Source of the DNA: Candidatus Nanopelagicales bacterium
GTDB lineage: Bacteria; Actinomycetota; Actinomycetes; S36-B12; GCA-2699445
NCBI GenBank assembly: GCA_030700225.1
Contig: JAUYJT010000063.1
Coordinates: 1 to 33,789, forward strand
Reading direction: 5' to 3'
DNA length: 33,789 nucleotides
The translations under genes and the position numbers were made by a program. This document shows positions 1 to 18,505 of the stretch, piece after piece; position 1 is the stretch's first letter; each line of letters opens with the position of its first letter. The notes under the pieces were generated by a model. It made no database searches. It worked only from the letters and a program-made list of their open reading frames with translations, and was not told the DNA's origin.

Positions 1-220
1 GGTTGAGCGCGGCGAGGCAGTCGAGTTGTGCCCTGGTTAGATCCCCACGCCACATGCAGCGGCCTTCCTCAAGCCAAACGTCGGCGCCGATCGCGGTGAG
101 CCGGTCGAGTCTGCGTCGAGCACTGACCGCGTGAACGGTGATCAACATGGTTCGGGTTCGCCCGCGTGAGTCGCGCAGCAGCACCTTGAAGATGGGTCGG
201 ACTGGGTTGGGTTCGCTCAT
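1..220 (-). CDS. Unknown element protein, 3' part cut by window edge
   Basis: An open frame starts with ATG at 220 and stays open for 73 codons to the window edge. Its ATG overlaps the TGA of the primase gene (ATGA), the same coupling used between the other genes of this operon, which is the main reason to believe it. The visible part begins MSEPNPVRPIFKVLLRDS and is basic in the middle (SARRRLDRL), with a WLEEGRCMWRGDLT stretch near the cut. I recognise no family. It is the last visible gene of the leftward replication operon. Confidence 0.6.
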   Translation of the reverse strand, partial: MSEPNPVRPIFKVLLRDSRGRTRTMLITVHAVSARRRLDRLTAIGADVWLEEGRCMWRGDLTRAQLDCLAALN

Positions 221-2091
221 CGTTCCGTTCCATCTGAGTAGGTGCTGTCGATGGGGTTGTTAGGCAGGCCCGTGAGGGGCAGGATTTGCCCCCGACCTGT
301 CCCCGCGCTGTCCCCACGGCTTGATTCCCGGGCGTGTCGCACACGCCCGTCGACCTGTCCCCGACCTGTCCCCACCTGTCCCCGCTCACGCTCAGAACCT
401 GTCCCCGACCTGTCCCCACCTGTCCCCACCTTGCCCGTGGGGGGAGTTGGGGGACCTGTCCCCGTTCTCCGCATGTCTAGTAGAGACATGCGGGGGACAG
501 GTTCCCCCCCCACGGACAACTTTCGGCGGCGCACAACCTCAGCCAGCAGCTTGTTCCTCACGGGGAACCCGGCGGATCTGAGAGCATCCCCGGCCTTGGC
601 TCGGCCAGCGTCGGCGGGGACCGCTAGCTCGTCGAGGCGTTTCGTGGTCGCGTCGATCTTCGCCTCGCGCGCTGAGTCGATGGATATCGACTCGTGGGTC
701 AGGGCCTCGCCTGTGGTTCGGCGAATGGCGAGGGTGTCGGGGTCGCCCAACCCGAGACGATCCTTCTCCCGCCGCAGGGTGAGCGTGTCTTTGTCGGTGA
801 GCGCCAACCTGTACACAAGATCCACGTCTGCGGCTTTCGCGCTAGATCCACGCTGACCGCGTTGGGGATCTTTCCCGCTGTGATCCAATCGCACGTAGGC
901 GATTCCGGCGCGTCTCAGTGGCGCCACGGTGTGCCGGTATTGCGCTAACGCCGTGTCGGAGTCGTTCTCCAAGCCGCGAACAGCCCGGCTCAGCGTGTCG
1001 ACAATGACAACCTCGGCACCAACGTCTTGGGCGGCTTCGAGCAGTCGCCGTCCTCCCTCGGCGGTGTCCAGGGGCTCCCATTCGCCCAAGAGCGAATAGT
1101 GGAGCCTGCCCAGTTTCTCGGGATCGGTGAACTGGAACGCTTCCAGACGGTTGCGCAGTATCGACGGGCTTTGTTCGAGGTCCAGGTACAGCACGGTCCG
1201 CGATCGAATCGGGTCGTCGAAGATCGGCGACCCGATGGCGACACGAACGGCCCAGTCCAGCATGAGCAGGCTCTTACCTTCGCCTGCCGCCGAGTAGATC
1301 GCGCACGACGCGCCGACCGGCAACACTCCGGGGATCACCCAGTCGGGCGGTTCGTGTTCCCCGGCGAGTAGTTCGCCCCAGTTGACGAAGCGGTACTTCG
1401 CTGTGGCTGTGGCTGACAGGTCGAGCGGGGCGAAGTCGTCCGCGCGCAACCCGGCGGCGATGTGGTCGGCGGCGTCTTTCCCTGCCGCGGATTGGACCGC
1501 TCGGACACTGGCCGCTATCGGTGTCAGGTGTCGTTTCACGTCTCGGGCGTGGCGTGTCCCGGGTTCGTCCCGGTCGGTGACGATCACGACGTGCGCGCCG
1601 GTCAGTGGGGTTTGATCGACGATGTTCCACTTCCCGGCGCCGCCGGGGTTGCAGGTGGCGGCCAGGCCCACGGATTCCAGCGCGAGGCAGTCTTTCTCGC
1701 CTTCGCAGATGTAGACCGGCTCGCCGTTCTTCACGGCTTCGGTGACGCCCGTCAGGTGGAACAGTGGCGAGGTTCGCTTGGTTTCGCCCGTTTGCCGGAA
1801 GTCCTTGCCGGGGGATCGGTGAACTGATCGGATGACTGCCCCCGAGTCGTCGGTGTAGTCGTATCGGGCGCCCCTGGGGTCGTCGTACAGGTCGGCCATG
1901 GTTAGCCCGATCGAGGCCAGTACGTCGGTTGTCTCGCATCCGGCGTGGCAGTGGATTAGCGCCGAGCCTTCTATGCGCCGCAGGTCGAGGACGTTCGTGG
2001 AGCCGCTGTCGTGCGCTGGGCATCTGGCCCTCGCCGTGTCCCCTGTGATCGTCGCGGTGAGGGCTCCCGCGAGCTTGTCGAACGCGGTCAC
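217..2091 (-). CDS. Primase-helicase type replication protein (CHC2 zinc finger, TOPRIM, RecA-like ATPase)
   Basis: The likely replication initiator of the element, 624 aa. A CHC2-like zinc site (C24-x2-H27, C48-x3-C52) is followed by a TOPRIM domain with E130 in ICEGEKD and D173/D175 in VTDRDEPG. Next comes a RecA/RepA-type ATPase with Walker A SAAGEGKS (267-274) and a Walker B VVIVDTL ending near D365. A basic helical region (about 490-530) probably forms a winged helix. The last about 85 residues are low-complexity, rich in G, T and R, and are encoded by the CTGTCCCC repeats. I chose the GTG at 2091 because it overlaps the upstream stop as GTGA. The open frame continues upstream to 2670, but that part lies antisense-framed inside the ParB-like gene. 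A primer-synthesis plus unwinding role follows from the domains; activity is inferred. Confidence 0.85.
   Translation of the reverse strand: MTAFDKLAGALTATITGDTARARCPAHDSGSTNVLDLRRIEGSALIHCHAGCETTDVLASIGLTMADLYDDPRGARYDYTDDSGAVIRSVHRSPGKDFRQTGETKRTSPLFHLTGVTEAVKNGEPVYICEGEKDCLALESVGLAATCNPGGAGKWNIVDQTPLTGAHVVIVTDRDEPGTRHARDVKRHLTPIAASVRAVQSAAGKDAADHIAAGLRADDFAPLDLSATATAKYRFVNWGELLAGEHEPPDWVIPGVLPVGASCAIYSAAGEGKSLLMLDWAVRVAIGSPIFDDPIRSRTVLYLDLEQSPSILRNRLEAFQFTDPEKLGRLHYSLLGEWEPLDTAEGGRRLLEAAQDVGAEVVIVDTLSRAVRGLENDSDTALAQYRHTVAPLRRAGIAYVRLDHSGKDPQRGQRGSSAKAADVDLVYRLALTDKDTLTLRREKDRLGLGDPDTLAIRRTTGEALTHESISIDSAREAKIDATTKRLDELAVPADAGRAKAGDALRSAGFPVRNKLLAEVVRRRKLSVGGEPVPRMSLLDMRRTGTGPPTPPTGKVGTGGDRSGTGSERERGQVGTGRGQVDGRVRHARESSRGDSAGTGRGQILPLTGLPNNPIDSTYSDGTER
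297..500. repeat. Iteron-like CTGTCCCC repeats, candidate replication origin
   Basis: Nine plus-strand copies of CTGTCCCC start at 297, 308, 355, 366, 376, 399, 410, 420 and 456, with one inverted copy at 493-500. Most carry the longer form ACCTGTCCCC followed by G or A. Neighbouring copies are commonly 10 or 11 bases apart, one turn of the helix. Because 10 and 11 are not multiples of three, the copies fall in different reading frames of the primase gene, so what is repeated is DNA and not protein. Phage-inducible islands and many plasmids place initiator-binding iterons beside the rep gene, and that is the reading I favour. Confidence 0.6.
469..493. other. Perfect 10-bp hairpin inside the iteron cluster
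   Basis: CCGCATGTCT (469-478) and AGACATGCGG (484-493) are perfect complements around the 5-base loop AGTAG. The hairpin sits between the ninth direct iteron and the single inverted one, inside the primase coding region. No T-run follows on either strand, so a terminator is less likely than an origin structure or protein-binding site. Confidence 0.55.
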
Positions 2092-3212
2092 GATCCACTC
2101 CCGGCCCACTGCGAGATGACGGGCTCCGCCCAGAGGCGGATCTCGTCTGGCGTGGTCCCGATGTCGGGGTTTCGGTCCAGGTCGTCGCACAGGTCGTCCA
2201 CGATCTGAGTCAGAGTCTCCGCGATGCCTCCCCGAGCGACCTTCTTGCGGTCGAGCCATCCGGCGGAATCGTTCAGCACTTCGGCTAGCGCGTCCTCGCT
2301 CGTGAGAGCTAGTGTCCGGCGACGCCTCGCGCGAGATAGCGCGAGGTCTTGAGGGGTGAGGCTCCGCACGATCAGGTTGTTTGAGATGCACAAGCCCGCG
2401 AGGTCCTCGTCTAGGCCGATGGTCTCGACGGGTGGCGTCTGCCCGGTCAACAGGCAGGCGATCAGGCGCGACCGTCCGTCCACGAGCGTCCCGCCCTCGG
2501 TGACGGCGATCGGCACCAGGACGCCGTAGTTCTTCAAGCTGTCGCAGAACCCGTCCCAATCCTCGGCGTCCATTCCCGGCATGGGCAGCGCTTCTAGGCC
2601 CATGAGAATCGACGTTATGCCGTTCGCCGCCATCGCGTCTTCGAGCAGATCCAAGCTCGGATACGCCCATCGAGGCTGATACGGCAGATGCCTCGTCCGA
2701 CCATCCTTACCAAGTCGACTGTCCAACTTGGACAGTTGACCGGATTCGATCAGTCCAGCCCTAACCGTCGAGACAGTCGATGGCGAGACACCGCATCTCC
2801 TGGCGTGTTCACGGTCCGATAGGTGCGGATCGGCGGTCAAGCTCCCGGCGACGATCCCGCGTCTTTGCTCGCGGCTCAGTTGACGGCCCGTGTTGTTCAC
2901 GCTCAGGGCGTGCGAGCGGGCGGCCTCATCGCTTGTGACCTGGATAGTGCGGCGGGGTGGTTCGATTCCGAGGTCTCGGCAGGCCTGGGCGCGGTGGTGC
3001 CCGTCGAGGATGCGGCCCCATGGGTCGACTTCGATGGGGACGCGGACACCGTTGGCGGCGATGTCGGCTTTCAGCGCCGCGTATTCCTCACTCGTTAACG
3101 CTGGCATGCACTGGAACGGCTCGGATTGTGTAGACTCGGTGTCAGATCCGTTGCCCACGTGGTCTACTGTCGCCCCGGCCCCTAAGCCGGGGCGAACTTC
3201 GTTGCCACTCAC
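2088..3212 (-). CDS. ParB-like protein with two ParB/sulfiredoxin-fold domains
   Basis: A 374-aa protein. The first ParB N-terminal-type domain (about residues 35-85) has NGVRVPIEV followed by GRILDGHHRAQA. A helix-turn-helix follows (DREHARRCGVSPSTVSTV). A second stretch near the middle (about 195-255) repeats the pattern: GVLVPIAVTEGGTLVDGRSR. The C-terminal third is charged and helical. The GTG at 3212 is preferred since it overlaps the stop of the small upstream gene as GTGA. The longer frame to 3353 adds an arginine-rich stretch that lies over that gene in another frame. No ParA partner is visible. In such elements ParB-like proteins may regulate or segregate DNA, and some ParB-fold proteins are nucleases; the role here is unproven. 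Confidence 0.8.
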   Translation of the reverse strand: MSGNEVRPGLGAGATVDHVGNGSDTESTQSEPFQCMPALTSEEYAALKADIAANGVRVPIEVDPWGRILDGHHRAQACRDLGIEPPRRTIQVTSDEAARSHALSVNNTGRQLSREQRRGIVAGSLTADPHLSDREHARRCGVSPSTVSTVRAGLIESGQLSKLDSRLGKDGRTRHLPYQPRWAYPSLDLLEDAMAANGITSILMGLEALPMPGMDAEDWDGFCDSLKNYGVLVPIAVTEGGTLVDGRSRLIACLLTGQTPPVETIGLDEDLAGLCISNNLIVRSLTPQDLALSRARRRRTLALTSEDALAEVLNDSAGWLDRKKVARGGIAETLTQIVDDLCDDLDRNPDIGTTPDEIRLWAEPVISQWAGSGS

Positions 3213-3346
3213 GAGGCACCACCGGATTCCATCAGCCCAAGGGCGAGCCTCACGGCTTCCGCAGCGCCGGGGCCGTTGAAGTCTTGGCCGGTTCGCTTCT
3301 GGGTGATCTTCGCTCTCACCCAGTCCTCGCCTTCGACGGCGTTCAC
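3209..3346 (-). CDS. 45-aa microprotein, translationally coupled
   Basis: A small frame beginning MNAVEGEDWVRAKITQKR and ending MESGGAS. It starts at a GTG that overlaps the stop of the 129-aa gene (GTGA) and ends at a TGA overlapped by the GTG of the ParB-like gene. It therefore fills exactly the gap between its neighbours, which is good evidence that it is translated. It has no cysteine, no membrane segment and no family I recognise. The second half (GAAEAVRLALGLM) looks like an amphipathic helix, suggesting a small partner of a neighbouring protein. Confidence 0.6.
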   Translation of the reverse strand: MNAVEGEDWVRAKITQKRTGQDFNGPGAAEAVRLALGLMESGGAS

Positions 3347-3732
3347 GACCCACCGCGCCGCGCCAGTAGAGCGAGCCCGAGCCGCACTGTCTCGGGGTCA
3401 GCGCCGCGAGCCACTAGCCCGGCTTCGGTCATGGGGTCGTCACCGGGCCGGAAGTACTTCCGCAAGTCGTGGGCGACGCCTTCCACTAGGTCACACTCGG
3501 CGTGTACCGCGACGCGCGTCGCCGCTGAGTGGTCCGCCACGGTCTGAAGATGTCCGGCGTTCAGTTCGCCGAAGCGGAGCCCGGCGGGGAGGGCGTCAGA
3601 CACGACCTCGCACGCCATGAGCGCGTCGGCTTCGGCTCGGGTCAGGAGCAACTCGAAGAATGCGTAGCTCCCGGCCATGAACTCGACCCGCCCTGACGCG
3701 ATCTGCGCGCGGACTCCTTCGAGCGTGCTCAT
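3343..3732 (-). CDS. Unknown 129-aa element protein
   Basis: An acidic, largely helical small protein (begins MSTLEGVRAQIASGRVEFM) with no signal peptide and no membrane segment. It contains FFELLLTRAEADALMACEVV and, later, HDLRKYFRPGDDP. Its ATG overlaps the stop of the excisionase-like gene (ATGA) and its TGA overlaps the start of the microprotein (GTGA), so it belongs to the same operon. I recognise no family. Its position between an excisionase and replication genes suggests an accessory role in excision or replication, but nothing in the sequence shows it. Confidence 0.7.
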   Translation of the reverse strand: MSTLEGVRAQIASGRVEFMAGSYAFFELLLTRAEADALMACEVVSDALPAGLRFGELNAGHLQTVADHSAATRVAVHAECDLVEGVAHDLRKYFRPGDDPMTEAGLVARGADPETVRLGLALLARRGGS

Positions 3733-3932
3733 GCGTCGGCCAGGAGTCGGGCTAGCGCGCTGGTGGGGATCAACAACCGCCTCCCGACACGAATGCTTGG
3801 GATCTGTCCGCAGTTGACTGCCGCGTAGGCGGAGGACCTGCTAACGCGCAGGATCTTGGCGGCGTCATCGACTGTGATTGTTGCCCGGATCTTCGGGTCG
3901 GGGATGGTGTCTGTTTCTGTCGTTATGTCCAT
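3729..3932 (-). CDS. Excisionase-like winged-helix DNA-binding protein
   Basis: A 67-aa protein containing the helix-turn-helix type found in excisionases and MerR-like small proteins: TVDDAAKILRVSRSSAYAAV, then the wing GQIPSIRVGRRLLIPTSAL. It is the first gene of the leftward operon and sits opposite the integrase-repressor pair, where xis is expected. I chose the ATG at 3932; a GTG at 3938 would add two residues. No Shine-Dalgarno is seen, but a TAGCGT hexamer ends 7 bases before the ATG, as expected of a leaderless message. The likely job is to direct the integrase towards excision and perhaps to regulate. Confidence 0.75.
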   Translation of the reverse strand: MDITTETDTIPDPKIRATITVDDAAKILRVSRSSAYAAVNCGQIPSIRVGRRLLIPTSALARLLADA

Positions 3933-3939
3933 GGACACG

Positions 3940-3968
3940 ACGCTAACAGCAAGGTCCGTCGCTGTCTA
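3940..3968 (-). promoter_or_regulatory. Putative promoter of the excisionase-replication operon
   Basis: Reading the minus strand, TAGACA (3968-3963) and TAGCGT (3945-3940) are separated by 17 bases, and the ATG of the excisionase-like gene follows 7 bases after the second hexamer. The -35 box abuts the palindrome at 3969-3984. Confidence 0.4.
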
Positions 3969-3984
3969 GTTGTCACGTGGCAAC
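3969..3984. promoter_or_regulatory. Palindromic operator candidate between divergent promoters
   Basis: GTTGTCACGTGGCAAC is a 16-base palindrome with one mismatched pair and a CACGTG centre. It covers the -35 box (TTGTCA) of the regulator gene and directly borders the -35 box of the excisionase operon. It is well placed for the XRE regulator encoded next to it to control both directions. Confidence 0.5.
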
Positions 3985-3999
3985 ACGATACGGTACGGT
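3970..3999 (+). promoter_or_regulatory. Putative leaderless promoter of the XRE regulator
   Basis: TTGTCA (3970-3975) and TACGGT (3994-3999) are 18 bases apart. The ATG at 4006 is where transcription would be expected to begin, and no Shine-Dalgarno is present. Confidence 0.45.
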
Positions 4000-4005
4000 C
4001 AGTCT

Positions 4006-4689
4006 ATGAACAGGCCAGCACGGGACAGCACTGGGGGTGTGGATGCGCTCATAGGGGCCAAGCTCCGCGCCATGCGCGGTGAGCGAGGCGTCACCCAATC
4101 TTCGATAGCGGACACGATGCGCGCCTTTGACCACAACTGGGCCCCGGCGACAGTCGCCGGAGTGGAGACGGGCCGACGGAACCTCAGCCTGGGCGAGCTG
4201 GCGGACCTTTGCCGAATCCTCAACGTCACGGTCCAGACATTCGTCAGCGACTCAGCGACGGCCGACACCGACACCCGAGCCCGCGCCGAGGCGCTGGTCT
4301 ACCGCAGGCCAACGGAAGCCCCGCCCGAGAGGGTGGCGGCGTCCGACCGGGCCAGGCGCCTGGAACGGCTCGAACACATCGTGCTTGAGTCCGCTCTCGG
4401 TCCCGACGACCCCGGCGGCGAGGAGGCGGACAGGGACCTACTGGCAATCATCTCGGCCCACTACGGACGGGACCTGTTGGCGGAGCGGGATCAGCGGGCG
4501 CGGGCGACATCCACGAGCAAGGCGTGGGCCACCCGCGCCATCATCGACGAACTCGCCAACATGCCGGAGCTGCGCGACGCGGCCCAAGCCTGGAGTGACT
4601 TCAGGTACGAGCGGGCCGTGGAGGACCACCAAGCCTGGCAGGGTCAGCGGGCAGAGGATCTCGCCCGCGAGATAGGCGAAGTGGAGTGA
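4006..4689 (+). CDS. XRE-family (Cro/CI-type) transcriptional regulator of the element
   Basis: A 227-aa protein with an N-terminal helix-turn-helix of the XRE type (residues about 14-80: IGAKLRAMRGERGVTQSSIA, then NWAPATVAGVETGRRNLSLG, ending in LCRILNVTVQTF). The remaining about 145 residues are charged and helical and resemble no domain I can name; they may dimerise or sense an inducer. It precedes the integrase by 7 bases and lies divergent from the excisionase operon, the usual place of a lysogeny-type master repressor. The open frame extends upstream to a TTG at 3970, but that start would lie in the -35 box, so ATG 4006 is preferred. Confidence 0.85.
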   Translation: MNRPARDSTGGVDALIGAKLRAMRGERGVTQSSIADTMRAFDHNWAPATVAGVETGRRNLSLGELADLCRILNVTVQTFVSDSATADTDTRARAEALVYRRPTEAPPERVAASDRARRLERLEHIVLESALGPDDPGGEEADRDLLAIISAHYGRDLLAERDQRARATSTSKAWATRAIIDELANMPELRDAAQAWSDFRYERAVEDHQAWQGQRAEDLAREIGEVE

Positions 4690-4696
4690 TGCGACC

Positions 4697-5923
4697 ATGA
4701 GAGGTTCCGTAGTCAAGCGTGTCGACGCTAAGGGCAAGGCCAGGTACTACGCGGTCATCGAGGACGTGGCAGCGGACGGCACACGCCGCCGCCGCTGGCA
4801 CTCCGACCCGGCGACAGGGTCCGCGTTCACATCGAAGCGGGACGCGGAGAAGGCCTTGTCCGGTTTGGTAGTGGCGGTCCAGAGCGGCGGCTACGTCGCT
4901 CCAGCCAGTCTCACGGTGGGGGAGTGGGCCGATCGTTGGCTCGCCCGAGCTGAGGACAGGCTCAGGCCGTCCACATTGGCCAGCTACGAGAAGAACCTCC
5001 GAGTGCACGTCAAGCCGCACATCGGAGAAGTCCGACTCCAGTCGCTATCAGCCGCCCACCTTGACGACATGTACGCGCGTTTGCGCGTCGACGGCAAACA
5101 CGTCAAGGGACATCAACCGTCCCCCTTGTCCGCCAGGACAGTCCGCTACGTGCATGTCATCACGAAGGCACTGCTATCTGACGCGGTTCGGTACGGCATC
5201 CTCTCCCGCAACCCGGCGGACGGTGCTACACCACCGTCCGCGAAGTCGACCAGCGCCGCCACGGGGACCCTGACGACTTGGGCGGCGACCGATGTCGCCG
5301 ACTTCTTGGAGGGCGCGCAGGCGCACCGCTACGGGCCACTGTTCGCTTTCCTCGCCCTGTCGGGGGCCAGGCGCGGCGAGGCGCTCGGGTTGCGCTGGAC
5401 AGATGTTGACATCGGTCGCCGCCGCGCCAGCATCACTAGCAGCGTCGGGCGAGTCTCAGGGAAGATCATTGAGGGTGGCACGAAGACGGGGGCCGGGCGC
5501 CGCCCGATAGCCCTAGACAGCTCCATTCTCGACGCGCTGGCGGAGCAACGGGCACGACAGCATCGGGACCGGGACCTGGTTGGGGCCGGTTACCGCGATC
5601 AGGGTCTAGTGTTCGCCGCGCCCGAGGGCAGCTACGTCAACCCCGAGCACGTCTCCCGCGTCTTCAAGTCCGAGGTCCAACGGCTCGGCCTTCCCCCGAT
5701 CCGCCTGCACGACTTGAGGCATACGTGGGCGACGCTCGCCCTACAGTCCGGGGTGCATCCCAGGGTCGTGCAAGAACGCCTCGGGCACTCAAACGTAACC
5801 ATCACTTTGCAGGTCTACTCGCACGTCGCGCCGCTCATGCATGACGAAGCCGCCGCCACGGTCGCCGGGCTGATCGAGGCGGCGAGAGACCCGAAAGTGA
5901 CACGGCTCCGCCAGGTTCGGTAG
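4697..5923 (+). CDS. int: Tyrosine recombinase (site-specific integrase)
   Basis: A 408-aa phage-type integrase that inserts the element at the adjacent tRNA gene. An N-terminal arm-binding region (about 1-65) is followed by a core-binding SAM-like domain (about 70-170, TVGEWADRWLARAEDRLRPS) and a C-terminal catalytic domain. All catalytic residues are visible: R225 in SGARRGEALGL, K263 in GGTKTG, H338 and R341 in LHDLRHTWAT, H364 in LGHSNV and the nucleophile Y374 in QVYSHV. The ATG follows the regulator stop by 7 bases with GTGGAG before it, so the two are probably one transcript. The gene points at the 3' end of the tRNA-Leu, about 50 bases away. It looks intact. Confidence 0.95.
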   Translation: MRGSVVKRVDAKGKARYYAVIEDVAADGTRRRRWHSDPATGSAFTSKRDAEKALSGLVVAVQSGGYVAPASLTVGEWADRWLARAEDRLRPSTLASYEKNLRVHVKPHIGEVRLQSLSAAHLDDMYARLRVDGKHVKGHQPSPLSARTVRYVHVITKALLSDAVRYGILSRNPADGATPPSAKSTSAATGTLTTWAATDVADFLEGAQAHRYGPLFAFLALSGARRGEALGLRWTDVDIGRRRASITSSVGRVSGKIIEGGTKTGAGRRPIALDSSILDALAEQRARQHRDRDLVGAGYRDQGLVFAAPEGSYVNPEHVSRVFKSEVQRLGLPPIRLHDLRHTWATLALQSGVHPRVVQERLGHSNVTITLQVYSHVAPLMHDEAAATVAGLIEAARDPKVTRLRQVR

Positions 5924-5933
5924 ACAGACGGTA

Positions 5934-5959
5934 GATGAAACACCGTTTCGGGCGTCATC
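5934..5959. terminator. Hairpin between integrase and tRNA-Leu
   Basis: GATGA (5934-5938) pairs with TCATC (5955-5959), and inner bases pair further, best on the minus strand where a G-U replaces a mismatch. It lies between two convergent transcripts. It has no clear T-run, so a terminator role is only likely by position; it may instead belong to the recombination site. Confidence 0.35.
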
Positions 5960-5974
5960 CACGAGGAGAATTAG

Positions 5975-6000
5975 TGTCCGAGGGGGGACTTGAACCCCCA
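5975..6000. other. Probable attachment site in the tRNA-Leu 3' end
   Basis: The integrase gene faces the T-arm and acceptor end of the tRNA, the segment normally used as crossover core by tRNA-directed integrases, which regenerate the tRNA on insertion. The matching copy at the other end of the element is outside the window, so the exact core cannot be set. Confidence 0.45.
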
Positions 6001-6059
6001 CGCCCTTATCGGGCACTAGCACCTCAAGCTAGCGCGTCTGCCTATTCCGCCACCCGGAC
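5975..6059 (-). tRNA. tRNA-Leu (anticodon GAG)
   Basis: On the minus strand the gene begins GTCCGGGTGGCGGAAT and ends CTCGGACA; the 7-bp acceptor stem pairs throughout with one G-U. The anticodon arm CTAGC-TTGAGGT-GCTAG gives GAG, reading CUC and CUU leucine codons. A long variable arm and a T-arm with GGTTCAAGTCC fit the leucine class. CCA is not encoded. The gene is complete, so integration has left it functional. Confidence 0.95.
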
Positions 6060-11364: not shown

Positions 11365-12984
11365 CTAGGAATTCAGCGAGAACACCTCGTCGAACGTGTC
11401 CCGGGTCTTGATGAACTCGATCTGGCCGACGTCGTCGACGATGACTCTGCTCGGGCGGGGGAAGTAGTTGGTGCTCGCTGCGTAGAACTGGGGATTGTAG
11501 GCCCCCGTGTCGTGTGTCAGCAAGATGTCTCCCCGGGCTGGTCGTCTCGGCAGCTCGATCTTGTAGCGAGAGGGCATGTCTCCGCTGAAGCAAAGCTGAC
11601 CGGCGATGAACCCAGTGAAAGGGCTTGGGTCGCGGCGATCGACATCCGTTGCCAGTTCCCACCTATTCATCGGGATTGTTACGGCTAGAGCCTCAGCGAA
11701 GCTGACAACCCCAGCCTCGATAGCAACAAGGTTGTGCTTGTTGAGGACCCGCTTCACGTGTCCGACGCGCGTGAGCGTGACCCCTGCGTCTTCGGGGATG
11801 CTCCGTCCGGGTTCGATGACCAGAATGGGCTCGCCGATCTCCCGGAGAGCCTTCGCGAACGGCATTGACTTGCCGCCCACTGGCACATTGGACGTCAGCA
11901 GTGCCTCAACCATATTCTCTTTGGGGTGTTCTGAGTAGTAGCCCTCGCCTGTCCAGGTGTCCAAGTGGAGTTGGCCGGTGGTTTCGTCGCGGAACCCGAC
12001 CATGTTGTTGTCCCAGGCCCACAGATGCGACGTATCGCCCTTCTTGGCAGCCAGGTACCCTCGGCGGATCCGGTTGAGAATCTGGTTCCACTGTTTCTTG
12101 TCGACGTAGTTGACCGGAAACCCACCGCCCATGTTCAGCATCTTGCACGGGTGCCCGGCGGCGATGAGCGTGCGCGAAGCCTCGATCATGCGCCCAGCGA
12201 CCTTCCGATATGGCTCGATGGTCGAGATCTGGGATCCGATGTGCGCGTGGAACCCTTGAAAGTCGATCTCGGGATACGCGCCCAGTCGGGACACAAACGC
12301 CTTGACCTCGTGGACGTTCATTCCGAACTTGGTCCATGAGCCGGCAGTGAACGCGGCGGCGTCCGTCACGAGCGGAATGTCGAATCCAGACAGCCGCATC
12401 AGAACACGCGGAGTTGTCCCGGCCTGGCGCGCTAGGCCCGCGATCAGTTCGAACTCCTCGGGGGAATCTGCGATGAGCACCATGCCTTTGGCCAGCGCCA
12501 GTTGGATCAGTTCGTCGGACTTGGTGTTGCCGTTGACATCCATGAACTTCGTGTCAATGCCAGCCAGGAGTGCACATTGGGCCTCGTTGTCCGAGGCGAC
12601 GTCGATTCCTGCTCCGGACTCCCTCACGTACTTGAACACTGTGGGATGGGCGTTCGCTTTGGCGGCGAACCTGACCTCGCCCTTGGGGTAGTGGCGCGCA
12701 AACACGTTGATGAACGCCGCCGCGTTCTCCCGGATGCGAGGTCCGTAGTGGACGTGCAGCGGAAGCCCGAAGTGGTCGACCCACCATGACACTGGGTAAC
12801 CCGCGACGACTAGGTCGCCGCCGATCGGTGCGGTCGTATTCCGCGCGGCGGCGGCTTCCCTGTTGAAGACAGAAGCGTCGCCAGACGTTGGGCGCCTCGC
12901 TGGTGAGCAACCGCTGGTGAGCAGCGGTACGGAGGCCATTCCGATCCCCGCCGCCTTGAGGAACTGGCGCCGGTCAAGTGTCAT
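11365..12984 (-). CDS. Tat-exported fold-type III PLP decarboxylase (diaminopimelate decarboxylase-like)
   Basis: A 539-aa protein with an N-terminal Tat signal (DRRQFLKAAG, R5-R6) and a possible lipidation cysteine C26 in LLTSGC, a weak lipobox. The rest is an alanine-racemase-fold PLP enzyme: K109 in FAAKANAHP binds PLP, H248 in HAHIGSQ stacks on it, GGG 286-288 and EPGR 391-394 hold the phosphate. C465 (QLCFSGD) and Y497 (DTGAYNP) are active-site positions of LysA. The glutamate that usually follows the cysteine is phenylalanine here. An insert (about 310-360) makes it longer than LysA (about 420-460 aa). ATG 12984 is chosen for its GGAGGAG ribosome site. Substrate unknown; it may not act in lysine synthesis, since it appears to be exported. 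Confidence 0.82.
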   Translation of the reverse strand: MTLDRRQFLKAAGIGMASVPLLTSGCSPARRPTSGDASVFNREAAAARNTTAPIGGDLVVAGYPVSWWVDHFGLPLHVHYGPRIRENAAAFINVFARHYPKGEVRFAAKANAHPTVFKYVRESGAGIDVASDNEAQCALLAGIDTKFMDVNGNTKSDELIQLALAKGMVLIADSPEEFELIAGLARQAGTTPRVLMRLSGFDIPLVTDAAAFTAGSWTKFGMNVHEVKAFVSRLGAYPEIDFQGFHAHIGSQISTIEPYRKVAGRMIEASRTLIAAGHPCKMLNMGGGFPVNYVDKKQWNQILNRIRRGYLAAKKGDTSHLWAWDNNMVGFRDETTGQLHLDTWTGEGYYSEHPKENMVEALLTSNVPVGGKSMPFAKALREIGEPILVIEPGRSIPEDAGVTLTRVGHVKRVLNKHNLVAIEAGVVSFAEALAVTIPMNRWELATDVDRRDPSPFTGFIAGQLCFSGDMPSRYKIELPRRPARGDILLTHDTGAYNPQFYAASTNYFPRPSRVIVDDVGQIEFIKTRDTFDEVFSLNS

Positions 12985-13119
12985 TCGCTCCTCCATTCAG
13001 CCTGGTGTCTCGCGGCCGAGTCGGCCGGAGGCGTGAGCAGTGACAGTCGCGATGCTACTGAAGGCCGCGCAACCTGGCCTTGTCTTTCCTATGCTCGGCT
13101 ATAGCGCCAAGGAGGAGCC

Positions 13120-14570: not shown

Positions 14571-14703
14571 CCTTCACCCGCCAACGCGGGGAAGCAGCGG
14601 GCCGCGCCACAAGCGGGGGGCTGTGGCGGTGGCGGGTATGCTCGCGACGGTCCCGTAGAGGGCCGCAATGGTGAGCGGGCACGGGATGTCAGATTGGAGC
14701 GAA

Positions 14704-15753
14704 ATGCGACTGGGTCTCAATCTCGGCTACTGGGGCATGGGCAACGACGCGGACAATCTTGTGCTGGCTCGCGAGGCAGACGAACTCGGGTACTCCGTGG
14801 TTTGGGCGGCGGAGGCGTACGGATCTGACGCCGCGACTGTCCTGACCTGGATCGCCGCGCAAACGGAGCGCATCGACGTTGGGTCGGCTGTGTTCCAGAT
14901 CCCCGGGCGCACCCCAGTCAACACCGCGATGACAGCCGCGACCCTGGACATGTTGTCCAATGGGCGCTTCCGCCTTGGCCTGGGCGTATCCGGGCCTCAG
15001 GTATCGGAGGGGTGGCACGGCGTGCGCTTCTCCAAGCCACTTGCCCGTACCCGCGAGTACGTCGACATCGTCCGCATGGCGCTGCGGCGCGAGCGGGTCA
15101 AGTATGACGGCGAGTTCTTCACGCTCCCTTTGCCAGACGGTCCGGGCAAGGCGCTGGCTCTGACCGTGCACCCGGTCCGCGAAGACATCCCGATGTACCT
15201 GGCTGCCATCGGACCGAAGAACCTTGAACTGGCGGGTGAGCTGTTCGACGGGTGGCTCGCGTTGTTCTACTCCCCGGAGTTCGCACCGGAGCAGATCGCC
15301 AGCATCCGAGCGGGCCGCGAGAAGTCAGGCAAGACGCTCGAAGGATTCGACATCGTGCCAACTGTGCCGCTAGTCATCGGGGAGGATCTCGAAGCCTGCG
15401 CAGCTCCGATCCGCGCATACGCCGCGCTCTACATCGGCGGGATGGGCAGCAGGGAGAAGAACTTCTACAACCAACTGGCCACGCGCATGGGCTACGGGGA
15501 AGCAGCCGCGCAGATCCAGGACCTTTTCCTGGCGCGTGATTACGCGGGTGCCGCCGCGAAAGTTCCTTTCGAGTTCATCGACAAAACGTCGCTCATCGGT
15601 CCGCCAGACCGGATCAAGGAGCGACTGTACGCCTTCGCCGAGTCAGGCGTCACCACACTCACCGTCGCCAGTTACGCGGGCGAGTTAGACCAGCGCACCG
15701 ACACTGTGCGTGCGATGGCGGCGATCCTGAGGGAATCGGGCCTGGCGGAGTGA
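14704..15753 (+). CDS. LLM-class (probable F420-dependent) oxidoreductase
   Basis: A 349-aa luciferase-like monooxygenase-fold protein: MRLGLNLGYWG at the start, AREADELGYSVVWAAEAYG, then DMLSNGRFRLGLGVSGPQV and, later, PMYLAAIGPKNLELAGELFD, all standard for the actinobacterial F420-dependent subgroup. Length and motifs fit Rv3520c-type enzymes. The substrate is unknown. ATG 14704 follows GGAG with a short spacer; the frame is open to 14668. Its stop overlaps the start of uppP (GTGA), so the two are translationally coupled. Confidence 0.85.
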   Translation: MRLGLNLGYWGMGNDADNLVLAREADELGYSVVWAAEAYGSDAATVLTWIAAQTERIDVGSAVFQIPGRTPVNTAMTAATLDMLSNGRFRLGLGVSGPQVSEGWHGVRFSKPLARTREYVDIVRMALRRERVKYDGEFFTLPLPDGPGKALALTVHPVREDIPMYLAAIGPKNLELAGELFDGWLALFYSPEFAPEQIASIRAGREKSGKTLEGFDIVPTVPLVIGEDLEACAAPIRAYAALYIGGMGSREKNFYNQLATRMGYGEAAAQIQDLFLARDYAGAAAKVPFEFIDKTSLIGPPDRIKERLYAFAESGVTTLTVASYAGELDQRTDTVRAMAAILRESGLAE

Positions 15754-16574
15754 TCGGCTGGTTCGAGGCTGTCCTGCTGGGTGTCGTACAGGGACTGACA
15801 GAGTTCCTCCCGATCTCCTCCACGGCACACATCCTGATCGTCTCTCAGCTGTTCGGCTGGGAGGATCCGGGAGCGGCCTTCACCGCGGTCACGCAGCTTG
15901 GCACCGAGAGCGCGGTGTTGGTGTACTTCCGCAAGGACATCACGCGGATCATCGCCACCTGGTCAAGGTCACTGTTCAGCCCGCCTTTGAGGTCAAGCAT
16001 TGACGCACGCATGGGGTGGTACGTCATCATCGGGACCTTGCCGATCGGAGTGTTCGGCTTCGCGTTCCGTGACCAAATCGAGACTGTGGCACGCAATCTG
16101 TGGCTCGTCGCTGGCGCGTTGATCGCGTTCGGCGTCATCCTCGGACTAGCGGACCGCCTCGGTGCGAAGGAAAAGGGGACAGAAGCCCTGACGGCACGAG
16201 ACGGGGTGCTGTTCGGGTTTGGGCAGGCACTTGCCCTCATCCCGGGAGTGTCCCGTTCCGGCGCGACGATCTCGGCGGGTTTGGCGCTTGGGTACAGACG
16301 CGAGGCCGCCACGAGGTACGCGTTCTTGCTGGCCATCCCCGCAGTGGTGATCTCTGGCCTGTTCGAAGCCCTGAAGATAGGCGACGGGTCAGCTCCACAA
16401 TGGGGCCCGACGATCTTGGCCACTTTGATCGCTTTCGTCGTCGGATACTCCGTGATCGCCTGGTTGCTGCGATACATCACGACGCATTCTTATCTGCCAT
16501 TCGTCGCTTACCGTATTGTGCTGGGGCTACTGATCATCGTGCTGCTCGGCTTCGGGGTGCTTACTACGGCGTGA
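15750..16574 (+). CDS. uppP: Undecaprenyl-diphosphatase
   Basis: A 274-aa integral membrane phosphatase that recycles the undecaprenyl carrier of cell-wall synthesis and gives bacitracin tolerance. Both family motifs are visible: the (E/Q)xxxE motif as Q14-GLT-E18 followed by FLPISSTAH, and PGVSRSGATIS in the middle. About eight hydrophobic segments fit the family, as does the length (about 270-280). It starts at a GTG overlapping the previous stop. In actinobacteria uppP commonly stands just before a histidine-phosphatase gene and mshC, as here. Confidence 0.95.
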   Translation: MIGWFEAVLLGVVQGLTEFLPISSTAHILIVSQLFGWEDPGAAFTAVTQLGTESAVLVYFRKDITRIIATWSRSLFSPPLRSSIDARMGWYVIIGTLPIGVFGFAFRDQIETVARNLWLVAGALIAFGVILGLADRLGAKEKGTEALTARDGVLFGFGQALALIPGVSRSGATISAGLALGYRREAATRYAFLLAIPAVVISGLFEALKIGDGSAPQWGPTILATLIAFVVGYSVIAWLLRYITTHSYLPFVAYRIVLGLLIIVLLGFGVLTTA

Positions 16575-16624
16575 GCCCCAACGCACCGTGACGATCGTGG
16601 CGGCAGGCAATAGGCTGTTGCTTT

Positions 16625-17275
16625 GTGACCAACGTTCTTCTGCTGGCGGAAGGCCGTAACACGGCCGAGGCGCAGGGGCTGCTGCCGGGTTGGATGCCCG
16701 ACGCCGGGCTCGATGACGTGGGTCGCAAGCAAGCCGAGATGGCAGCGCTTCGGCTGCGTGAAGTCCGTTTCTGTGCCATCGTTACCAGCCCATTGGAGGG
16801 CTGCCGCCAGACTGCCGAAGTCGTCGCCAAGCAGAGGCGGCGCGACCTGCCAGTGCATGCCGAACTCGACCTCGCCAGTTGCAGGTACGGGGACTGGACC
16901 GGGATGCCGCTGGACGTCGTGCGCAAGGAACCGCTGTGGGAATCCGTGCTCCACGTTCCAAGCGCGGTGCGCTTCCCCGGCGGCGAGTCGCTGTCGGAGA
17001 TGCAGATCAGGGCGCTGCACGCCATTGGGAGCTGGAACCAACGTCTTGGCGGGGAGTCCACCTATGTTGTTGTCAGTCACGGCGACGTCATCCGGTCCAT
17101 CCTGGCCGACGCGCTTGGGCTGCATCTGGACATGTTCCGCAGGATTGAGGTGCGGCCCGGATCGATCTCTGTCATCAAGTATCAGGACGGTCCGTGCGTG
17201 GTTTCGCGTCTCAACGACGACGGATCAGATTTGACTTCCTACTCTCCGCGCCGCATGCGTCGCGGACGGAAGTGA
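16625..17275 (+). CDS. Histidine-phosphatase-fold protein lacking catalytic residues (MSMEG_4193-like)
   Basis: A 216-aa member of the phosphoglycerate-mutase/histidine phosphatase superfamily. By position and by segments such as PGWMPDAGLDDVGRKQAE, RYGDWTGM and RFPGGESLSEMQIRA it is the protein normally encoded between uppP and mshC. The catalytic motif RHG reads A8-E9-G10, so the phospho-accepting histidine is a glutamate. The usual arginine in SPLxRC is glycine (SPLEGC). The acid before the YGDW segment is lost (ASCRYGDW). The C-terminal histidine in VVVSHGDVIRS remains. The frame is open and intact, so this looks like a conserved pseudoenzyme and not a decayed gene. It starts at GTG 16625 without a ribosome site; TAGGCT lies 8 bases upstream. 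Confidence 0.82.
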   Translation: MTNVLLLAEGRNTAEAQGLLPGWMPDAGLDDVGRKQAEMAALRLREVRFCAIVTSPLEGCRQTAEVVAKQRRRDLPVHAELDLASCRYGDWTGMPLDVVRKEPLWESVLHVPSAVRFPGGESLSEMQIRALHAIGSWNQRLGGESTYVVVSHGDVIRSILADALGLHLDMFRRIEVRPGSISVIKYQDGPCVVSRLNDDGSDLTSYSPRRMRRGRK

Positions 17276-17278
17276 CAC

Positions 17279-18505
17279 ATGCGGTCGTGGCCGCCGACGG
17301 TCGTCCCCGAACTTCCTGGGCGTGCCCCGTCGCTACGCGTGTTTGACACGGCATCCGGGCAGATCCGTCCGACGGCGCCAGGTGAGCGCGCGCGCATGTA
17401 TGTGTGCGGGATAACTCCCTACGACGCCACGCACATCGGTCACGCGGCCACGTACATCCTGTTCGATACGGTGAACCGCATCTGGCGGGACGGCGGCCAT
17501 GACGTGGACTACACGCAGAACGTGACGGACGTTGACGACCCGCTGCTTGAACGTGCGGTCGAAAGCGGCGAGGACTGGCGTGGTCTCGCCGACCGCGAGA
17601 CCGAGGCATTCCGGGCGGACATGGAGGCTCTGCGAGTGATCCCGCCGCGGAACTACATCGGAGCCGTCGAGTCGATCCCCTGGATTGTGGATTCGATACT
17701 GGAGCTCAAGCAGATGAGGGCTGCGTATGAGGTTGATGGCGACCTGTATTTCCCAGTAGGTGTCGCGCCAAGGTTCGGCGAGGTGTCGGGACTTCCGCGG
17801 CGCGAGATGATGCGTCTGTTCGCGGAGAGGGGCGGAGATCCCCAGCGCGAGGGGAAGCGCGATCCACTGGACGCGTTGCTCTGGCGCTCAGCCCGGGACG
17901 GCGAGCCGTCATGGAGAAGTGCGCTGGGTCGAGGTCGGCCAGGCTGGCACGTGGAGTGCAGCTCGATCGCTTCTGTGATGCCCGGCGTCCCTTTGGACAT
18001 TCAAGGCGGCGGATCGGACCTGTCGTTTCCGCATCACGAGATGTGTGCGGCGATGGCTGAGGCGGGTTCTGGGGCATGGCCTTTCGCCAGGCACTACCTT
18101 CATGTCGGGATGGTCGGCTATCAGGGCGAGAAGATGAGCAAGTCTCGCGGCAACCTGGTGTTCGTTCGGTCGCTACTTGACGGCGGCGCCGATCCGTCCG
18201 CGATCCGTCTAGCGATTCTGGCCCACCACTACCAGACGGATTGGGAATGGACGCCTGAGGACTTGGCGAGGGCGCAAGACCGGTTGACCGCCTGGAGGCT
18301 GGGCGCCGAAGCGCGGAAGGCACCATCGGGTGCCGCGTTGCTCCAGCGGTTGCGGGAATGCCTTAGCGACAACCTGAGTACCGATTCCGCGCTGGCCGCT
18401 GTCGACGACTGGGTGACCCAGGCGCGCCTCGGACGCGGGCCCGACGCCGACGCTCCGACCTTGGTCCGCGCAGCGGTGGACGCCTTGCTCGGCGTCGTCA
18501 TTTGA
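17279..18505 (+). CDS. mshC: Mycothiol ligase (L-cysteine:GlcN-Ins ligase)
   Basis: A 408-aa ATP-dependent ligase that joins cysteine to glucosaminyl-inositol, a late step of mycothiol synthesis. It is a shortened class I cysteinyl-tRNA synthetase: a HIGH-like THIGHA (51-56), KMSKS (285-289), and zinc ligands C43 (YVCGITPYDATH), C227 (HVECSS) and H252 (FPHHE). The signature GITPYDATH distinguishes MshC from cysteinyl-tRNA synthetase. The anticodon-binding region is reduced, as in the family (about 410 aa). It starts 3 bases after the stop of the preceding gene, so it is likely in one transcript with it. Its presence implies mycothiol as the main thiol. Confidence 0.95.
   Translation: MRSWPPTVVPELPGRAPSLRVFDTASGQIRPTAPGERARMYVCGITPYDATHIGHAATYILFDTVNRIWRDGGHDVDYTQNVTDVDDPLLERAVESGEDWRGLADRETEAFRADMEALRVIPPRNYIGAVESIPWIVDSILELKQMRAAYEVDGDLYFPVGVAPRFGEVSGLPRREMMRLFAERGGDPQREGKRDPLDALLWRSARDGEPSWRSALGRGRPGWHVECSSIASVMPGVPLDIQGGGSDLSFPHHEMCAAMAEAGSGAWPFARHYLHVGMVGYQGEKMSKSRGNLVFVRSLLDGGADPSAIRLAILAHHYQTDWEWTPEDLARAQDRLTAWRLGAEARKAPSGAALLQRLRECLSDNLSTDSALAAVDDWVTQARLGRGPDADAPTLVRAAVDALLGVVI

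Follow-up and report, generated by a model that had tools for sequence, protein, structure and literature searches.

A putative Tat-targeted PLP decarboxylase of a rare family between LysA and Y4yA in a Candidatus Nanopelagicales bacterium

Described relatives of the encoded protein

To our knowledge, the amino-acid decarboxylases of the superfamily of fold-type III PLP enzymes that includes the diaminopimelate (DAP) decarboxylase LysA (DAPDC) are cytoplasmic enzymes, and decarboxylation on the cell surface by this superfamily occurs in no described system. The PLP enzymes PvdN and PtaA of Pseudomonas, which have a different PLP fold, that of the aminotransferase type, are located in the Gram-negative periplasm. 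Both are exported by Tat in a folded form together with the cofactor, and PvdN performs a decarboxylation (PMC6206403). A fold-type III PLP enzyme is found outside the cytoplasm in P. putida, whose periplasmic broad-spectrum racemase Alr differs from the protein considered here in its chemistry and residues and, in the accessible part of the source, is not described as Tat-exported or lipid-anchored (PMC6034422). The openly accessible literature yielded neither a description of an exported DAP-type decarboxylase, which is not proof of absence, nor one of Y4yA, a related family known by its RefSeq name.

The gene described here lies in a 33,789-nt stretch of DNA, which was analysed as a whole and is referred to as the window. 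The protein that it encodes (the window protein) shares with LysA the fold (Z up to 38), the PLP lysine, HIGSQ, the GGG loop, EPGR, the catalytic Cys and TGAY, and it differs from LysA in the putative Tat signal, in a long insert, in Phe466 replacing a Glu and in Glu431 replacing an Arg (Table 1). Its full-length similarity to Y4yA proteins is 22-29%, and these too have a long insert at the corresponding site, but they carry HLDG or HLDT instead of HIGSQ and an end of the C-x-E-x-(D/E)L type, form a clade of their own and have no Tat signal that we could see. The N-citryl amino-acid decarboxylases FigC/FslC and SbnH have the same fold and, like the window protein, are changed in both specificity elements; FigC also has a hydrophobic residue beside the catalytic Cys (PMC7857480). 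They are only 17-20% similar to it in the fold search, however, belong to siderophore clusters and have no described export signal. DokD, the D-ornithine/D-lysine decarboxylase, is alike in fold (Z about 36 for the model of the window protein) and in the barrel, but the window protein scores 109 bits with the corresponding model NF052544, whose cut-off is 700.

Table 1. Features of the decarboxylase gene and its product; positions are those of the window, residues those of the protein.
Feature	Position	Strand	Remarks and basis
Putatively Tat-targeted fold-type III PLP decarboxylase, complete gene	11365..12984	minus	539 aa + stop; ORF, family matches, model, start analysis
Ribosome-binding site GGAGGAG	12988..12994	minus	directly 5' of ATG at 12984; sequence and start scan
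Predicted Tat signal peptide, residues 1-26	12907..12984	minus	RRQFLK, hydrophobic stretch, lipobox-like LTSGC; Tat-profile scores, low pLDDT, Tat signal in sister L065
Cys26, possible lipidation site	12907..12909	minus	sequence; absent from sister L065 (family alignment)
Lys109, PLP Schiff-base lysine (TmDAPDC K46)	12658..12660	minus	invariant in two alignments
HIGSQ 248-252	12229..12243	minus	His stacks on PLP, Ser binds phosphate
GGGFP 286-290, glycine loop	12115..12129	minus	PLP phosphate; Pro replaces LysA Gly
Insert relative to LysA, about residues 299-353	11926..12090	minus	common to the family, long insert at same site in Y4yA; alignments, spacing counts
EPGR 391-394	11803..11814	minus	Glu to pyridine nitrogen, Arg
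Glu431, at site of DAP-carboxylate-binding Arg (TmDAPDC R285, M. jannaschii R343)	11692..11694	minus	local alignment divergent
CFSGD 465-469	11578..11592	minus	catalytic Cys465; Phe466 replaces the Glu contacting the distal amino group of DAP (TmDAPDC E315)
TGAY 493-496	11497..11508	minus	Tyr to PLP phosphate (TmDAPDC Y343)

The gene, its start and its catalytic residues

Residue numbers are counted from the ATG at 12984. The sole good ribosome site lies 5' of the Tat signal, directly before this ATG, while the site of an alternative ATG at 12996, twelve bases further 5', is weak. On the 3' side the only in-frame candidates are ATG16 and CTG21, within the signal, and GTG65, within the conserved domain, none of which has a convincing ribosome site in the start scan, and so no usable start separates the signal from the domain. 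A start after the signal, which the preliminary description had named as an outcome that would speak against its proposal, therefore receives no support from the sequence.

The assignment to the fold-type III PLP decarboxylases is based on the match to PF02784 (Orn_Arg_deC_N, 112.8 bits), on the PLP Lys, the His, the GGG loop, EPGR, the Cys and the Tyr, and on a barrel with a C-terminal sheet domain. The PLP lysine, HIGSQ, GGGF and EPGR on which the initial assignment to the DAP decarboxylase group had relied were all located (K109, HIGSQ 248-252, GGGFP 286-290 and EPGR 391-394), and the PLP residues of TmDAPDC (K46, D65, H179, S182, E246 and Y343) are retained together with the catalytic Cys. 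Both PF00278 and the decarboxylase-type Glu391 are present in all ten members of the family described below. The structure model (pLDDT 87.4, pTM 0.88) superimposes on the H. pylori DAP decarboxylase with a Z of 38.3 and 2.0 Å over 390 residues. In a HMMER alignment with 2YXX, in which residues were counted, E246, R249, R285, C314 and E315 correspond to E391, R394, E431, C465 and F466, and the same pairing results when the family is aligned with nine LysA sequences in MAFFT; the assignment of E431 is the least certain of these, because an earlier MAFFT run with fewer rows had a gap near it.

The gene stands alone, with a convergent M20 peptidase gene on one side and a divergent small ORF on the other, beyond which follow genes of an aldo/keto reductase, an LLM oxidoreductase, UppP and MshC; the F420 LLM oxidoreductase, UppP and MshC genes are found together at 14668-18505. 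MshC marks the contig as actinobacterial, and the presence of mshC and other actinobacterial genes on the contig argues against contamination, a reading that was rejected. The G+C content is 0.61-0.62 over the gene compared with 0.64-0.66 in its flanks, with equally low values in other stretches of the window; the lower G+C and the absence of the gene from related genomes suggest that it was gained horizontally. A tyrosine integrase gene (4697-5923, plus strand) ends beside a tRNA-Leu(gag) gene (5974-6059, minus strand), and a Toprim/AAA primase-helicase-like protein is encoded at 217-2670 (minus strand), on the far side of the integrase; this region (window 1-6059) is probably the terminal part of an integrated element whose remainder lies beyond the contig. 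Short direct repeats of the type ACCTGTCCCC, in 31-nt copies of which two are identical, occupy 284-437 and overlap the primase-like gene at its end. The possibility that the decarboxylase gene is cargo of a mobile element was rejected, since the primase-like genes lie on the far side of the integrase and tRNA-Leu genes (4697-6059) and the decarboxylase gene lies on the opposite side.

The N-terminal signal and the CFSGD family

The N-terminus of the window protein (MTLDRRQFLKAAGIGMASVPLLTSGC) contains an RRxFLK motif (RRQFL being residues 5-9), an uncharged, moderately hydrophobic stretch and a lipobox-like end. The Tat pattern, RRx(F/L)(L/K) with a moderately hydrophobic stretch behind it, is represented by RRQFLK and a best 11-residue hydropathy of 1.69. 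Of random N-termini with the local protein composition, 1.7% contain the motif RR-x-[FGAVML]-[LITMVF]; the share falls to 0.19% when an uncharged hydrophobic stretch is also required, and to a fraction of about 3e-6 when a lipobox is demanded as well. The curated Tat models are borderline, as the scores of TIGR01409 (16.4 bits, cut-off 16.7) and Pfam TAT_signal PF10518 (16.0 bits, cut-off 22.7) are just under the cut-offs; the independent predicted Tat signal of the closest orthologue, L065, is stronger support for Tat targeting than these profiles. Residues 1-32 of the model have a pLDDT below 50, compared with more than 90 for most of the domain, and TatC is encoded in the genomes of both the window protein and L065. 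The twin-arginine signal seen initially is thus supported by the RRQFLK motif with its hydrophobic stretch, by the start and by the sister sequence, even with borderline curated models. The possible lipidation cysteine proposed along with it, Cys26, lies in LTSGC, a loose match to the lipobox, and is not conserved, having no counterpart in L065. Export of the window protein, and its lipidation, are predictions made from the sequence.

The window protein is a member of a rare uncharacterised family, here called the CFSGD family, which stands between LysA and the Y4yA group and for which NCBIfam has no curated model. When 84,980 species genomes were scanned with a pattern steered by motifs, nine orthologues with 34-49% identity emerged, spread over six or more phyla: L063 from WOR-1, L064 from Eremiobacterota, L065 from a Spirochaetota MAG, L066 from Methylococcus, L067-L069 from Holophagaceae, L070 from a deltaproteobacterial MAG (Myxococcota according to the tree tool) and L071 from an unassigned bacterium. 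The probe alignment, composed of the window protein and scrambled rows that kept only two motifs, served solely to steer the search pattern; a single-sequence scan of the 84,980 genomes gave no close relative. Only LysA and Y4yA types, and no orthologue, were found in 99 genomes of relatives and in 166 genomes of the order, 395 of the class and 396 of the phylum. Members occur in 1 of 296 Spirochaetota genomes, 2 of 247 Acidobacteriota genomes and 1 of 331 genomes of the class of L066, the previously known member being counted in each; these searches added one member, in Acidobacteriota. Phages and plasmids yielded only LysA, Y4yA and similar proteins, with about 31% identity or less among the matches listed. 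At least one additional weaker fold-III match, probably an ordinary LysA, is present in seven of the eight orthologue-bearing genomes. Two different CFSGD-family copies (L068 and L069) lie on separate contigs of the Holophagaceae genome UBA692, and a 29% relative of the decarboxylase is encoded at 5001-5957 of the 123-kb IMG/VR contig L154.

All ten members have C-[FY] in place of C-E and have lost the Arg of the far DAP carboxylate (TmDAPDC R285; M. jannaschii R343), with Glu or Asp at this site in seven. The 50-residue insert noticed at the outset is real: 105 residues separate GGG from EPG in the window protein compared with 40-44 in LysA, and the spacing is 88-118 in the nine family members readable by script and 72-117 in Y4yA rows, apart from the very short outlier L140. 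The CFSGD motif and the insert had been taken as indications of a new substrate. A non-DAP pocket is supported, but the motif and the insert are not tied to export, being shared with members that look cytoplasmic, and Y4yA has a long insert as well; they are marks of the family and not of an exported oddity.

The comparison of homologues with and without the signal, which the preliminary description had suggested, showed that a Tat signal is present in two of the ten members, the window protein and L065 (MDRRRFLFSSISGTVAAGLLAG), and that eight of the nine orthologues look cytoplasmic. A Tat scan of 41 rows of the CFSGD family and Y4yA-like relatives and of 58 other ORFs, with the window protein examined separately, gave no hit other than L065 and an implausible site in L102. 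In a maximum-likelihood tree from which the first 45 residues of the window protein had been left out, this protein and L065 are sisters with support of 100/97. Given the Tat signal of L065 and a grouping obtained without the signal of the window protein, the simplest history is that Tat targeting probably arose by a single gain in this clade. The two deepest members, L070 and L071, are not firmly attached to the remaining eight: a branch uniting all ten appears in 68% of bootstrap trees, which makes the outer limit of the family uncertain. The window protein is outside the main Y4yA clade (100/100). Four fold-III PLP enzymes, L112 and L138 (Planctomycetota) and L140 and L142 (Chloroflexota), are placed on long branches outside the main LysA, Y4yA and CFSGD groups and are possibly further unnamed families.

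Substrate, alternative readings and implications

The replacement found at Phe466 has been made in TmDAPDC, where the E315F substitution lowered meso-DAP activity from 675 to 36 mU/mg, a loss of about 95%, and produced activities that the wild type lacks, of 4.1 mU/mg with D-Phe and 4.2 mU/mg with D-norleucine (PMC8277567). According to work on FigC, substrate choice in the superfamily is set by the Cys loop together with the specificity helix (PMC7857480). Both elements are altered in the window protein, and together with the E315F data this makes a non-DAP substrate a well supported prediction. Most likely the substrate would be a (D-)amino acid other than DAP, or else a conjugate of larger size; candidates may include hydrophobic (D-)amino acids, basic ones bound through Glu431, or such a conjugate. 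The D-amino acids or peptides, external or derived from the cell wall, that the preliminary description had suggested may also be considered. Nothing in the neighbourhood of the window gene points to a substrate, and no shared genes are apparent in the orthologue neighbourhoods as read from ORF starts.

We consider it probable that the protein is a Tat-exported, possibly lipid-anchored fold-type III PLP decarboxylase of the CFSGD family acting on a non-DAP amino acid. If its N-terminus were not a working Tat signal, the enzyme would be a cytoplasmic decarboxylase or one anchored in the membrane and facing inward, which would agree with the cytoplasmic appearance of most other members and with the borderline Tat models; this is fairly improbable in view of the start and ribosome site, which favour the signal, the clear Tat signal (MDRRRFLFSSISG) of L065, the chance frequency of about 0.2% for the motif with its hydrophobic stretch, and TatC in both genomes. 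The residual DAP activity of TmDAPDC E315F, about 5% (PMC8277567), and the facts that lysA is the best profile and DAP decarboxylases are the best folds would suit an additional meso-DAP decarboxylase, one that is exported and produces lysine outside the cell from cell-wall-derived DAP. We regard this as very improbable, for the lysA score of 207.7 bits is below the cut-off of 297.9 (TIGR01048), both DAP-side residues are changed throughout the family (Glu to Phe466, Arg to Glu431), and a distinct, ordinary lysA with CESGD (L001) is present in the same genome.

The preliminary description had spoken of a decarboxylase or racemase, and of this the PLP decarboxylase fold stands, whereas a racemase is disfavoured because Glu391, the decarboxylase residue at the pyridine nitrogen, and the catalytic Cys465 are retained; racemases have Arg at the pyridine nitrogen. 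If the protein were an exported racemase of amino acids, it would resemble the broad-spectrum racemases of this fold that work in the periplasm (PMC6034422) and share their fold class, and Pfam Ala_racemase_N scores 24.5 bits against 24.1, but this reading is hardly credible, as Asp128 and the C-terminal sheet domain also fit decarboxylases and no racemase is among the best 50 fold matches. The model and the intact catalytic set argue for decarboxylation and not racemisation. A small but real chance is left to an extracellular tailoring enzyme which, like SbnH or FigC, acts on a large conjugate (a citryl-, glutamyl- or peptidyl-amino acid): the hydrophobic residue after the catalytic Cys and the changed specificity helix are FigC-like (PMC7857480), the long insert is near the barrel, and PvdN is a Tat-exported tailoring PLP enzyme (PMC6206403). 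Against it, no siderophore or biosynthetic genes adjoin the window gene, and cytoplasmic family members are also found in lone contexts.

For the probable reading, an exported decarboxylase acting on a non-DAP amino acid, a course of events can be proposed. PLP loading and folding of the protein would take place in the cytoplasm, a requirement known from PvdN (PMC6206403), and Tat would then export it folded, after which a lipid on Cys26 may hold it on the outer face of the membrane. Outside, an amino acid other than meso-DAP would be bound as the external aldimine and lose CO2, and the amine would be set free. A point against this reading is that the active site is formed by two subunits, so that export would call for a dimer that passes through Tat or assembles on the outside. 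Activity and substrate are deduced here from residue comparisons, and we suggest only tentatively the wider view in which a small clade of PLP decarboxylases gained a Tat signal, thereby came to be located outside the cell, and acts there on a (D-)amino acid, peptide end or conjugate of the envelope or the environment.

The CFSGD family is sparse, spans several phyla and has a pocket altered at both known specificity points, which makes its substrate directly testable. Its members with and without the signal are a natural pair for studying the adaptation of a dimeric PLP enzyme to Tat. If the window protein is exported by Tat, PLP-dependent decarboxylation would take place on the cell surface, beside D-amino acids, peptidoglycan fragments and environmental amines.
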